Shown in pieces: positions 11,069-32,931 of a stretch of 32,931 nucleotides of DNA. Position numbers and translations under genes: made by a program. The stretch covers positions 1-32,931 of the forward strand of contig JAFGVM010000017.1 of the NCBI GenBank assembly GCA_016937995.1, given 5' to 3'. Origin of the DNA: Candidatus Delongbacteria bacterium (GTDB lineage Bacteria > UBA4055). The first letter of the stretch is position 1. Each line of letters begins with the position of its first letter. The notes under the pieces were generated by a model. That model was not told the DNA's origin. It did not search any database and saw only the letters and a list, made by a program, of their open reading frames with translations.

Positions 11069-11611
11069 ATGAAAATAAAGATATTGATCCTAACTGTATT
11101 CTCAGTATTACTTTTTTTGTCTTGTACTCCTGAAGTGGATGATGATCTTCTGACCATTTATTCTCAAAATAATTCTGTCTATTCAAAGTTTGACTCCGAT
11201 ACTATAGTTGCTCTGGTTAGGACAAGGTATTCTTCATTTCCTTACAGAAATGGTGTTGCATTAGGAGATACTTCGTATTCAGCCAACACGTTATTCATGA
11301 AAACTTTTGATTCTTCCAACTGGCTATTCCTTGGAAAACTTGACAATGACTCCAATTTGAATGTTGTAAAATGGGATAATATTAACAAAAAGATCCATAT
11401 CAGATATGATGATACTCTGGTATTTGTGAAAGATCTTAGACATATTGGCATGGATGATACAATCGCTTTCAATGATTCGGTCTATCCGAATATAGAGACC
11501 TTTACACTGACATTATCAGCCGATTCCACATATATCGATAGTATCAATAATGGAAACTGGTACAAAACATACAGAAGCTGGAAAGATGATATGATAAATC
11601 TGTACAGATAG
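11069..11611 (+). CDS. small lipoprotein of unknown function
   Basis: The 180-residue protein has a lipoprotein signal peptide with lipobox LFLSC (Cys19), so it should be lipidated and face the periplasm or outside. The acidic EVDDD after the Cys is followed by a beta-rich, Asp/Ser/Tyr-rich region without a motif I recognise. AGGA lies before the ATG. It stands alone between two non-coding gaps, with repeats upstream and the rpsO terminator region downstream. Confidence 0.75.
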   Translation: MKIKILILTVFSVLLFLSCTPEVDDDLLTIYSQNNSVYSKFDSDTIVALVRTRYSSFPYRNGVALGDTSYSANTLFMKTFDSSNWLFLGKLDNDSNLNVVKWDNINKKIHIRYDDTLVFVKDLRHIGMDDTIAFNDSVYPNIETFTLTLSADSTYIDSINNGNWYKTYRSWKDDMINLYR

Positions 11612-11783
11612 TGATAAGTGGCGAGTAATAAGTTTTTAAATATCATAACACACTCAAAATTAATTTTTGATTAAAAACAAGTAGTTCAAGGAATAATTTT
11701 CTTTTTTGAATGAACCTAGTGACCCAGGTGACTTGAATAAAAATAATATTATGAAGAAGAAATACGCAGTTTATCATCAGAAA

Positions 11784-11813
11784 TAAAAAAACCCCGAATA
11801 ATTCGGGGTTTTT
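11784..11813 (-). terminator. intrinsic terminator of rpsO, probably bidirectional
   Basis: Arms AACCCCGAA (11790-11798) and TTCGGGGTT (11802-11810) form a 9-bp stem with a 3-base loop. The run of A residues at 11784-11790 is the U tract for the minus strand, 20 bases after the rpsO stop. A shorter T run on the other side could also stop plus-strand transcription. Confidence 0.9.
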
Positions 11814-11831: not shown

Positions 11832-12104
11832 TTAGTAACGATCTTTAATTCCAAGATCAGCGATCAAAGCTCTATATCTCTCAATATCCTTGTTCTTCAA
11901 AAACTTTAACAATCTACCTCTTTTACCAAGTAACAATCTCATACCTCTTCTTGAGTGATTGTCTTTTTTATTGATCTTCAGGTGTTCAGTCAACTGCTTT
12001 ACTCTTGTTGACATGATAACGATCTGCACTTCAGCTTTTCCGGTATCTTTTTCAGAACCACCGTACTTTTTTACGATCTCCAGTTTTCCTTCTTTTCCTA
12101 GCAT
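11832..12104 (-). CDS. rpsO: 30S ribosomal protein S15
   Basis: The 90-residue protein is a full-length S15, an early-binding small-subunit protein that contacts 16S rRNA helices in the central domain. Family signatures are visible: GSEKDTGKAEVQIVIMSTRVKQLTEHLK, then NKKDNHSRRGMRLLLGKRGRLLKFLK and the C-terminal RYRALIADLGIKDRY. The ATG has a strong AAGGAG. The gene has its own promoter and terminator and is not followed by pnp, the neighbour in many other bacteria. S15 often represses its own mRNA; the leader of about 70 bases could hold such a site, but none is recognised with certainty. Confidence 0.97.
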   Translation of the reverse strand: MLGKEGKLEIVKKYGGSEKDTGKAEVQIVIMSTRVKQLTEHLKINKKDNHSRRGMRLLLGKRGRLLKFLKNKDIERYRALIADLGIKDRY

Positions 12105-23694: not shown

Positions 23695-25008
23695 TTATTT
23701 ATCCAGAAAGCTGCTTAACATAGAATCTTTACCGGCTATGATCTCATTTTCCTGGTTCAGGACCCTGTTCAATTCAGGAAACTGTTTTTCACTACCATAA
23801 ATTTTTGTTTCTAAATACATCTTATCCACTGCTTTTAAGACTCTTTCTACTGTAAGCTTTTCAACAGGTATATTCAATGTATAAGCATCATGTTTTTTTG
23901 CGATCTCGATTATTATTCCGCTTTGCTCGAGTTTTGCAATACACTGATTAACATCTTTCAACGGTATATCAAGTTCTGAACTGATCTCCATCAAACTTGA
24001 CCTTTCATTACCATCGATAAAATCTTTAAGTATTTTTAATGTTATCATCATAGCTATTTTGATCTTATCTACCCTGTTTGTTTCCACATTTATTTCCATG
24101 TGCTTTAAGTTGTGGATGTTCTGTCTTACAAAAGTGATCTGAACACTGAGAAGAACTATTATCCATGAAAAATATATCCAAAGCATGAAGAACGGTAAAA
24201 CCGCAACAGAACCGTAGATCACGTTATAGCTGACCGCCATTCTTGTATAGTGAATGAATATCGCTTTAAGGATCGTGTAGAGGATCGCCCCGATAAACGC
24301 ACCAACTGCAGCATGTTTAACCTTGACTTTAGTATTAGGCATTATTATCAGCAGGAACATGAACATCAGCATTATCAGAAAGAACGGTAACATCTGAAAT
24401 ATTATGAAGGTTGAAAAACCTCCCCATACATTATCACCCGCCTGAATAATGAATTCAAGTCTACCCGCAAGCCAGATCGATACAATCAGAAGAACAGGAG
24501 TAATGAACACGATCGATAAATATGTCTTCAATTGCTCTAACGGCTGTCTGTCCTTGTTCATCTGCCAGACCATATTGAACGATCTTTCTATTGATGACAG
24601 AATTGAATACACTGCCACTAGTAAAAACACAGCACCAATACTTCCCAAAGCATCCACTGTTGCTGAACCCAGAAATGAATCGATGTATTCTGAGATAGTA
24701 TCTCCGGCACCTGATGCTAAAAAGTCATAGATCATCGGCTTGATCTTCGTTTCTACCATCTTTCCGCCGAAAGCTTTGAAGAACATGAATAATATCGCTA
24801 AAACAGGTATAAGTGATAAAAGGGTGGTAAATGCAAGGGCAGAGGCTCTGCTGAAAAGATTGTTCCTCTGCAGAAGTTTAACTTCAAGAACAAGCATCTG
24901 TAACTCTTTCATAAAAAATCGTTTAGCTCCGCTAAAACTCTCCTCAATATCAGTGAACCAAAGATCATGAGTTAAAAATTTGTGTGCTTTCTTAATGAAT
25001 TTAGTCAA
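23695..25008 (-). CDS. YihY/BrkB family inner-membrane protein with a C-terminal winged helix
   Basis: The 437-residue protein has the YihY/BrkB family pattern: the FSRASALAFTTLLSLIPVLAILF opening helix, five to six membrane segments up to about residue 280, and the family motif near YNVIYGSVAVLPFFMLWIYFSWIIVLL. The old name RNase BN is wrong for this family. A soluble tail (about 310-437) looks like a winged helix (LMEISSELDIPLKDVNQCIAKLEQSGII), suggesting ligand- or DNA-linked control. Translation starts at TTG with GAAGG upstream; no good ATG is near. It is co-transcribed with the ComEC-like lipoprotein gene downstream. Confidence 0.88.
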   Translation of the reverse strand: MTKFIKKAHKFLTHDLWFTDIEESFSGAKRFFMKELQMLVLEVKLLQRNNLFSRASALAFTTLLSLIPVLAILFMFFKAFGGKMVETKIKPMIYDFLASGAGDTISEYIDSFLGSATVDALGSIGAVFLLVAVYSILSSIERSFNMVWQMNKDRQPLEQLKTYLSIVFITPVLLIVSIWLAGRLEFIIQAGDNVWGGFSTFIIFQMLPFFLIMLMFMFLLIIMPNTKVKVKHAAVGAFIGAILYTILKAIFIHYTRMAVSYNVIYGSVAVLPFFMLWIYFSWIIVLLSVQITFVRQNIHNLKHMEINVETNRVDKIKIAMMITLKILKDFIDGNERSSLMEISSELDIPLKDVNQCIAKLEQSGIIIEIAKKHDAYTLNIPVEKLTVERVLKAVDKMYLETKIYGSEKQFPELNRVLNQENEIIAGKDSMLSSFLDK

Positions 25009-25342
25009 AATATAACCTTCAAGTTAATTATTTGATCTTAGTGTTGTGCCGCAAACTGTATTTTTGTCAGAAATAATTTGTAAATAAATGCCTGATAAGT
25101 CAAGAGATATATTTAATAGTCCGTAGAACTCAAAAAAAATAAAATGAAGAGTTTGAAGTCAATTAACACTTTAGATCTTGAAAACTTCATAGTGTAAAAA
25201 TTAACAATTCACCGCAAATTTTAAAATGAATTTAAATAAAGATATGCAAGGAGAATGTAAATTTTCGAAAATGAGTTTACATGATGTAAATGAATTGAGA
25301 ATAATTTACACTTCAACGCAGCAGATCAAAGTTTAAAACATT
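25009..25342. other. 334-base intergenic region with a two-tier hairpin repeat
   Basis: No coding region is seen between the YihY start and the dnaB stop. It is AT-rich. The notable content is the nested hairpin at 25256-25310, a copy of which lies at the right end of the window. A further weak hairpin (ACACT...AGTGT) lies near 25170-25197. No terminator with a T run was found for dnaB. Confidence 0.6.
25256..25310 (+). repeat. two-tier hairpin repeat, copy 1
   Basis: The outer stem TGTAAATT (25256-25263) pairs with AATTTACA (25303-25310). The inner stem GTTTAC (25275-25280) pairs with GTAAAT (25286-25291, one G-T) around a 5-base loop. The inner part, TGAGTTTAC...GTAAATGAA, is conserved in copy 2 at 32883-32929, while the outer stem bases differ but still pair. 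Confidence 0.65.
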
Positions 25343-26725
25343 TTATATTTGACTGTATCTATCTTCAGCAAACCTGTCAATATTATCCTCAAACTTCAAA
25401 CATTTTTTATCAAAATGAAGGTTGACGATCCCGGTCGGACCACTTCTCTGCTTACCGATAATAACTTCAGCAAGACCTGACTGATCCCGCCCGTTAGCAT
25501 CCTTTATACCATAAAATTCAGGTCTTAAAATGAACATAACAAGGTCTGCATCCTGCTCGATCGCACCTGATTCCCGAAGATCAGAAAGAATAGGTCTCTT
25601 GTCCTGTCTTTTATCAACCTCTCTGTTCAGCTGTGATAGGACCATAATTGGAACATCAAGTTCTTTTGAAAGACCTTTTAATGCTCTGGATATCCTGGAA
25701 ATACCTTCATGTCTCTCTATCTTTGAGTCTGTCTCCATCAAACCGATATAATCAATAATGATCAGACCGATATTTTTATCTTTTTTCAATCTTCGGCATT
25801 TTGTTCTAAGCTCAAGAACATTCAGTGAAGTGGAATCATCAATGAAAATTGGAAGTTCTGCAAGGGCACCCATTGCAATGCCAAGAGATGTCCATTCATC
25901 AGCCTGTAGATTTCCGGCTTTAAGATTTTTAAGGCTGACATTACCAACCATAGAAAGTAATCTCATTGCCAATTCACTTCTACCCATTTCAAGGCTGAAA
26001 ATAGCTACCGGAGTCTTTTCTTCTGATCTCGCTGCATTTATAGCAAAATTCAAAGCCAGCTGAGTTTTTCCCATACTAGGTCTTGCAGCAAGAACTAAAA
26101 GATTACTGTTCTGCCATCCGGCTGTCAGTGAATCAAGTCTCTCATATCCTGAAGTAACACCTGAGACATCACCTGATTTTTTACTCCACTCTTCTATCTG
26201 TGCGTATACTTTATATAATGATTCCTCAATTTGTAAAGGTATGTTCCTCTGCTTTTTTTCCGCCAGTTCAAATAATTCCCCACTGAGCTTGTCCAATAAC
26301 TGATTGGCCTCTTTCTCCTCAGAATATGCAGTTTCTATAGAATCAGTGCTTAAGTGTATTAATGATCTCAGCAAATATTTATTTTGAACTATTTCTGCAT
26401 AATGCCTGATATTTGCGCTTGTGGAAATTGCATCTATTACTTCTGCCAGATAAGGAGCTCCTCCTGCATCACTTAGTTTCCCTGTCTTATGAAGGTGATT
26501 TTTTAAACTAAGCAGATCAATAGCATGATTATTTGACATGAGATTTTTCATTGCCTGATAAATATATCTGTGTTGTTTTGAATAAAAATATGATTCCTCT
26601 GGACGCATATCACCTAGTTTTTCATCCCAGTCCTCATCTATCATAATACAACAAAGTAATGCTTTTTCTATTTCAAGGTCATGCGGTGGTATTTTTTTTA
26701 TATCTTCGTTCATCTCAGGATCCAT
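25343..26725 (-). CDS. dnaB: replicative DNA helicase DnaB
   Basis: DnaB is the hexameric 5'-3' helicase that unwinds DNA at the replication fork. The N-terminal primase-interaction domain opens with PPHDLEIEKALLCCIM. The RecA-like core has Walker A ARPSMGKT (residues 214-221), SLEMGRSELAMRL, Walker B LIIIDYIGLM, the LSQLNREVDKR motif, and the C-terminal KQRSGPTG with the arginine finger. At 460 residues it is normal and there is no intein. The ATG has no strong ribosome site; a second ATG four codons later is an alternative. Transcription is away from the EamA gene. Confidence 0.97.
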   Translation of the reverse strand: MDPEMNEDIKKIPPHDLEIEKALLCCIMIDEDWDEKLGDMRPEESYFYSKQHRYIYQAMKNLMSNNHAIDLLSLKNHLHKTGKLSDAGGAPYLAEVIDAISTSANIRHYAEIVQNKYLLRSLIHLSTDSIETAYSEEKEANQLLDKLSGELFELAEKKQRNIPLQIEESLYKVYAQIEEWSKKSGDVSGVTSGYERLDSLTAGWQNSNLLVLAARPSMGKTQLALNFAINAARSEEKTPVAIFSLEMGRSELAMRLLSMVGNVSLKNLKAGNLQADEWTSLGIAMGALAELPIFIDDSTSLNVLELRTKCRRLKKDKNIGLIIIDYIGLMETDSKIERHEGISRISRALKGLSKELDVPIMVLSQLNREVDKRQDKRPILSDLRESGAIEQDADLVMFILRPEFYGIKDANGRDQSGLAEVIIGKQRSGPTGIVNLHFDKKCLKFEDNIDRFAEDRYSQI

Positions 26726-32758: not shown

Positions 32759-32882
32759 ATTAAATTCTATTTGCAAACATACAGAAATGTATTTATCTTA
32801 CCACCCGTATTTCACTTGTGTGAAAACAAATGCGACTAAAATAAAGATATTGTGTAAAAATGCAGATTTTTTAGGAAGTAAC

Positions 32883-32929
32883 GAAATTATAAAGTGAGTT
32901 TACAGACGTAAATGAACGAATATAATTTC
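32883..32929 (+). repeat. two-tier hairpin repeat, copy 2
   Basis: The outer stem GAAATTATA (32883-32891) pairs perfectly with TATAATTTC (32921-32929). The inner stem GTTTAC (32898-32903) pairs with GTAAAT (32908-32913) around a 4-base loop. The inner core matches copy 1 at 25256-25310. The element may continue past the window edge. Confidence 0.65.
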
Positions 32930-32931
32930 TA

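Follow-up and report, generated by a model that had tools for sequence, protein, structure and literature searches.

The stretch of DNA analyzed here, referred to as the window, is a contig of 32,931 nucleotides from a Candidatus Delongbacteria bacterium (assembly GCA_016937995.1, contig JAFGVM010000017.1). It includes a minus-strand gene for a BrkB-family membrane protein (positions 23695–25008; Pfam PF03631, 2.3e-50) and dnaB, also on the minus strand (25343–26725; Pfam DnaB_C, 1.6e-99). The 3' end of dnaB carries, in antisense, a full-length copy of a hairpin element at positions 25223–25346 of the plus strand (82.3 bits, E 1.3e-19 with R3, the broadest of the covariance models described below; fold −30.8 kcal/mol), and the 3' end of this copy overlaps the dnaB stop codon. 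The segment 25230–25345 has a fold z-score of −3.73 relative to 200 shuffles. The middle and inner helices of the copy, also on the plus strand, occupy 25256–25310, and its apical hairpin (25272–25294), of the form T-GA-G-TTTAC-loop-GTAAA-T-GA-A, contains tandem G·A/A·G pairs and a G·T closing pair. A second plus-strand copy (32847–32931), whose 3' side is cut by the end of the contig, gives a partial match to R3 (29.6 bits, E 3.4e-05) and 59.1 bits with the earlier model R1. The third, at 11663–11784 of the plus strand (R3 93.5 bits, E 1.1e-22), lies between a plus-strand ORF at 11069–11611 and the minus-strand gene for ribosomal protein S15 (11832–12104, identified by Pfam). In addition, an Rfam search of the window found a class A RNase P RNA (2138–2504) and a tRNA gene (134–207).

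Two of these copies were recognized in part by a first-pass annotation, made from the letters alone, which marked a hairpin at 25256–25310 and a second near the contig end and gave their coordinates and pairing correctly, as read in the sequence. In the first, TGTAAATT (25256–25263) pairs with AATTTACA (25303–25310) and, in the second, GAAATTATA (32883–32891) pairs with TATAATTTC (32921–32929), all on the plus strand; the outer stems consist of different bases and each is perfectly paired, the core TGAGTTTAC...GTAAATGAA is common to both hairpins on the same strand, and both are in gene-free intergenic gaps, as had been noted. An upstream AAATAAAGATAT block, which had been thought to be common to the two flanks, is a chance resemblance: its distance upstream of the core is 38 nt in one copy but 56 nt in the other, so that the two blocks are not in register, and a third exact match is found inside an ORF at 11073; the block was dropped as a part of the element. 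The hairpins themselves are real, but the true element is longer, reaching the boundaries given above, and the third copy in the window had been missed. The observation is confirmed and is larger than first described: what was marked as two hairpins is the inner part of two copies of an interspersed, gene-less element of ∼124 nt. The suggestion that a structure is under selection here, as a small RNA, a protein-binding hairpin, or a mobile repeat, is supported, and the data favor a mobile or interspersed hairpin repeat; the covariance-model search proposed as a check was clearly positive, with many copies found and outer stems that covary.

A bipartite core pattern has three matches in the 2.75-Mb genome of the window and none in the reversed control, and a slightly shorter core yields a fourth copy, on contig C9 of the same genome. 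Alignment of these four copies indicates conservation beyond the coordinates noted earlier, and the covariance model built from them (R1) gives 33 matches at E ≤ 0.017 in the genome of the window, of 38 up to E 10. With a second model (R2; 124 positions and 41 pairs, from 51 copies), there are 35 matches in this genome (G000), where C37:34065 matches on both strands, and 82–83 in a relative, G004, the most of any; the numbers in G001, G002, G005, G006, G007, G008, and G009 are 7, 19, 3, 1, 11, 1, and 2, respectively, and R2 has no match in G003 and G010. Large scans extend this distribution: R2 has matches in at least 13 of 386 genomes, 11 in the family of the window together with G259 and G307 from other families (46 and 6 matches), and the broader R3 has matches in at least 35 of 384 genomes around G259, the counts being lower limits because nine candidates were scored per genome and weak matches were lost. 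The 35 genomes positive with R3 carry 18 family labels, as counted from the listing, and the weakest among them are G035 (7e-4), G297 (2.9e-6), and G131 (2.1e-6). G259 and its congeners are probably Deferribacterota and G407 is probably close to Mucispirillum, on the basis of gene order and GC content. Several copies are at contig ends. In G259, the copies are often directly preceded by another repeat, which ends in GCAGTGACGGG or GCAAAGACGG. A search of plasmid and phage collections with one divergent copy as query gave no match, and in Rfam 15 the window at gathering score gave no family matching the element, while 5 and 9 loci searched at a relaxed E-value gave only tRNA and weak subthreshold matches.

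The element forms a rod in which, from the outside inward, a variable outer stem is followed by short covarying stems, a conserved AAGG(A/C)/(G/A)ACG loop, a variable middle stem, and the apical hairpin. When 51 copies were aligned with MAFFT (alignment A5, which excludes L025, L034, and L040 because they are cut or near-duplicates), 80.8% of cells were paired, whereas shuffled controls gave 61.1% and slid partners no more than 48.5%; cells changed on both sides number 449 versus 189, changes of this type are present in 37 of the 41 pairs, and the covariation is 0.510 versus 0.197 for shuffled and at most 0.194 for slid partners. In a model-fitted alignment of 111 copies, which is biased toward structure, 86.6% of cells pair (57.6% shuffled), covariation is 0.677 (versus 0.197), and double changes occur in 39 of 41 pairs. 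Compensatory changes are also seen at one orthologous locus, between a uppP-like ORF and a tRNA-Arg gene, represented by L019, L049, and L056. Between the helices, tandem G·A/A·G pairs at columns 29/100, 30/99, 55/76, and 56/75 are present in 47, 46, 46, and 47 of the 51 copies, respectively, and are presumably of the sheared kind, as established nucleic acid chemistry would indicate; a kink-turn was ruled out, as the tandem G·A pairs have no adjacent 3-nt bulge. In 85 of 111 copies, the apical stem is closed by a G-U pair.

In 49 of 54 copies, the plus strand of the element gives a more stable fold than the complement, the mean difference being −10.4 kcal/mol with RNA parameters, and the helix cells include 288 G-T versus 86 A-C pairs (203 versus 86 when the apical closing pair is excluded). 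Because the plus strand folds better and G-T exceeds A-C, the fold that has been kept is that of one strand, an outcome that fits folding as RNA or as single-stranded DNA alike.

The copies are also oriented with respect to genes. Of 152 copies, 87 have an opposite-strand ORF whose stop codon is within 60 nt of their 3' end, compared with 11 in the mirror arrangement, in which a same-strand stop is within 60 nt of the 5' end. The binomial p is 8e-16, but this overstates independence because the five sets from which the copies come include tandem and homologous ones. The count, for which ORFs were called mechanically, is without L025 (at a contig end), the partial L232:7445, and L211, L220, and L226, each of which duplicates another locus. 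Opposite-strand starts are found upstream of 21 copies, and a same-strand ORF starts within 60 nt downstream of 15, a frequency that led to rejection of a riboswitch or 5' leader, the idea having come from the fourth copy, which is upstream of an ORF taken by eye as hcp. An intrinsic terminator, which would have a GC stem and then a T-run along the folded strand, was likewise rejected; what follows 30 of the 152 copies is an A-run (a T-run precedes 14), and for several copies in G259 this A-run is the T-run of a terminator on the opposite strand. One relative has five copies between putative atpB and atpE genes (ORFs read by eye), all of them antisense, the first being ∼12 nt behind the atpB stop.

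It could be proposed from these features that the copies are transcribed, as antisense or stand-alone RNAs, and that the rod, with its G·A loops and G·U closing pair, binds a protein. This structured RNA family is the main rival to the mobile-element reading developed below, and we consider it unlikely. The better folding of the plus strand, the prevalence of the G-U closing pair together with the strictness of the tandem G·A pairs, and the compensatory changes at the locus of L019, L049, and L056 are all as expected for an RNA, but the copy number ranges from 0 to more than 80 within one family, most copies are directed into the 3' terminus of an opposite-strand gene, with no regular target gene, no promoter-like sequence was seen by eye to be common to the regions upstream of the Delongbacteria copies, and none of the Rfam matches is above chance. 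A second RNA-level explanation, in which a REP-like hairpin in the mRNA of the gene itself shields the 3' end of the transcript or causes ribosomes to stall past the stop, would account for the position directly behind stop codons or a reverse-strand terminator run. However, what the mRNA would contain is the complement, the worse-folding strand in 49 of 54 copies, with the conserved G·A pairs turned into T·C mismatches and the G-T pairs into A-C, and a 3'-UTR element appears improbable.

The orientation extends to replication. In G259, a near-complete genome, the minimum of the cumulative GC skew, near 265–270 kb of contig C3 beside recF- and gidA-like motifs, was taken as the origin, and other contigs were placed by their own skew; a DnaA-like motif is found at 103 kb. 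With this assignment, the plus strand of the element is on the negative-skew strand, the template of the leading strand, in 42 of 45 copies (binomial 8.7e-10; one partial match, C7:42578, left out) and, by strictly local 20-kb skew, in 38 of 45. A similar bias was described for sedentary integrons, where, in the portion of that study considered here, the attC bottom strand is on the leading-strand template in 25 of 30 (PMC5371416).

As attC sites are described in the portions of two papers used for comparison (PMC5371416, PMC2727003), they resemble the element in lying directly behind a stop codon, in having one strand, antisense to the gene, that forms the hairpin, in keeping their shape while the sequence varies, in their similar length, and in placing the folded strand mostly on the leading-strand template. 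Like an attC site, the element has one folding strand and stands behind a coding sequence, a likeness of fold and placement. It might therefore be asked whether the copies are true attC sites served by a diverged integron integrase, an explanation that fits their position behind stop codons, the antisense folded strand, a length of 100–125 nt with kept shape and variable sequence, the replication bias, and the presence of integrase-like proteins in G000, G001, G002, G003, and G006. Nevertheless, there is no constant AAC/GTT R box as in attC: at columns 13–16/116–119 of A5, C-G at 16/116 is found in only 22 of 51 copies, and one subgroup in G259 has ATGC/GCAT at these columns. In addition, the terminal structure is the variable part of attC, whereas the apical hairpin of the element is conserved, and the copies are dispersed singly behind housekeeping genes, with no cassettes or cassette array and no attI seen. 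The richest genome, G004, has more than 80 copies and no integron integrase, only Xer-grade matches to the integrase model. Matches to TIGR02249 above the cut-off were found in only 2 of 14 genomes, G005 and G008, which have 3 and 1 copies, and not in G000, G002, G004, or G007, all of which have more. We accordingly regard true attC sites as highly unlikely. The tyrosine recombinases at C43:14625, C16:7579, and C78:46103 of G000, and those in G001, G002, G003, and G006, match the integrase model on either side of model positions ∼180–238, with a gap between, and may be close outgroups of IntI.

Comparison of related genomes indicates that copies can be present or absent at the same site. At the dnaB site, three relatives (L089, L090, and L091) have only a short spacer that gives no model match, and the window has ∼230 bp more; alignment with these relatives places the insert, which includes copy 1, at 25110–25346, its boundaries being approximate, with the BrkB-family gene on its far side. 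The insert is within the last codons of dnaB, the new stop is inside the outer arm of the element, and a stretch resembling the old end of dnaB is found beyond the insert; no clear target duplication was seen within these approximate boundaries. The insert also contains ∼100 bp (25117–25222) with another inverted repeat (TTAACACT...AGTGT), DNA that is missing from the three relatives and may be a second kind of element. Copies at two of three sites in G259 are also present in G386, G388, and G389; the third is present in G386 and G388, with only a remnant, judged by eye, in G389, and the congener G387 is without all three. Exact empty-site boundaries were not obtained from G387, which differs beyond the element, or from the near-identical regions L228 and L234, both of which have the element; the latter two are ∼93% identical and also differ by several further lineage-specific inserts rich in inverted repeats. 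Four copies are in a single prophage structural module (terminase, portal, protease, and head and tail proteins; PHROGs), three of them starting within 14 nt of, or overlapping, the stop of the preceding ORF and one 187 nt behind.

At the sites compared between G259 and its congeners, and likewise between L228 and L234, the cores can differ while the outer stem stays paired, and tandem copies 1–2 nt apart can carry different cores. In L246, L247, L161, and L184, adjacent tandem copies have different inner hairpins and nearly the same outer arms, a pattern that suggests exchange of cores between sites. Arrays of 119-bp units occur in G389, and tandem arrays of such units are found at L255 2135–2510 and L256 1975–2442; in L255, the last unit is the only one with a complete outer arm. 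Swapped or rebuilt inner parts and arrays of this type might arise without selection if template switching in replication kept the arms of dispersed palindromes complementary, but this would erase mismatches, yet the G·A mismatches are among the most constant parts and the same plan is found in many families, and such an origin has little to recommend it.

The preferred reading is that of a gene-less interspersed element read as a folded single strand and mobilized in trans, in the manner of attC or REP, and it derives from the gene-less dispersal, the one-strand fold with its constant irregularities, the gene-end placement, and the presence and absence at orthologous sites. A putative recombinase or transposase acting in trans would most likely recognize the folded strand by shape and not by sequence, by analogy with integron integrases and attC or REP-associated transposases and REPs; copies would come to rest at the very 3' ends of genes and would persist mostly at positions where the folding strand is single-stranded least often, serving there as template for the gene as well as for the leading strand. 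Established here are the existence of the family and its fold, the preference for one strand, the bias with respect to gene ends and replication, and the presence or absence at dnaB; we infer folding in DNA, the action of an enzyme, and exposure as the cause of the orientation. The reading is put forward tentatively because no enzyme was found and selection at the RNA level explains the fold equally well and would likewise produce the covariation and the excess of G-U. Neither of the enzyme families tested tracks the copies, integron integrase as noted above and Y1 transposase (PF01797) in having 1 match in G000, 4 in G002, and none in G004. Also, the persistence of copies at orthologous sites in several congeners is more in keeping with a feature that is maintained than with a transposon that is active, and the differing inner parts of orthologous copies could also come from gene conversion.

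The hairpin repeat belongs to a known sort, the interspersed hairpin repeats, and shares features with several of them. Like the REP, BIME, and REPIN sequences associated with Y1 transposases (RAYTs), the element is a short, gene-less intergenic hairpin that recurs tens of times, at gene ends and sometimes in tandem. REPs are short palindromes with stems conserved in sequence and a GTAG/GGAG foot. The element, in contrast, is 124 nt long, its stem sequence is not conserved, its foot covaries with its partner (at column 20/111, TA in 20 copies, AT in 19, and others) and is not fixed as GTAG/GGAG, and G004 has no Y1 transposase. MITEs are similar in being gene-less and dispersed with inverted arms, but the arms of the element are paired and locus-specific with no common terminal repeat, and no partner transposon was found. 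Multicopy palindromic families that are dispersed and intergenic, some of them called predicted short RNAs, are described for Geobacter and Pelobacter in the sections of the papers drawn on here (PMC2700814, PMC2996986, PMC3543383), and Cozzuto et al. (2008) describe, in the part of their account used, families of intergenic stem-loop repeats sharing a fold (PMC2267715). The element resembles the former in being dispersed, intergenic, and palindromic and the latter in its intergenic location and common fold, as compared by description and not by alignment or lists. A literature search that stopped short of the Geobacter sequence supplements gave no description of the present family, part of which may already be listed in the Geobacter and Pelobacter papers under another name.

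It is possible, though doubtful, that the mobile-element reading extends to a new class of single-strand recombination elements in many bacterial families: shape-coded hairpins with tandem G·A loops that would be moved in trans into the last codons of genes or behind their stops, would swap inner hairpins, and would persist only where replication and transcription do not expose the folding strand, the logic of attC without integrons. The repeat can mislead, as contigs break at it and integron finders based on hairpins could call it attC. A structure-coded repeat that reaches tens of copies per genome and is spread over many bacterial families offers a large target that is easy to test, and it would reveal either a new system of single-strand recombination or transposition or a new family of structured RNA. 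Through the tie between the folding strand, the gene end, and the direction of replication, it can also be tested directly where large hairpins are tolerated in bacteria.
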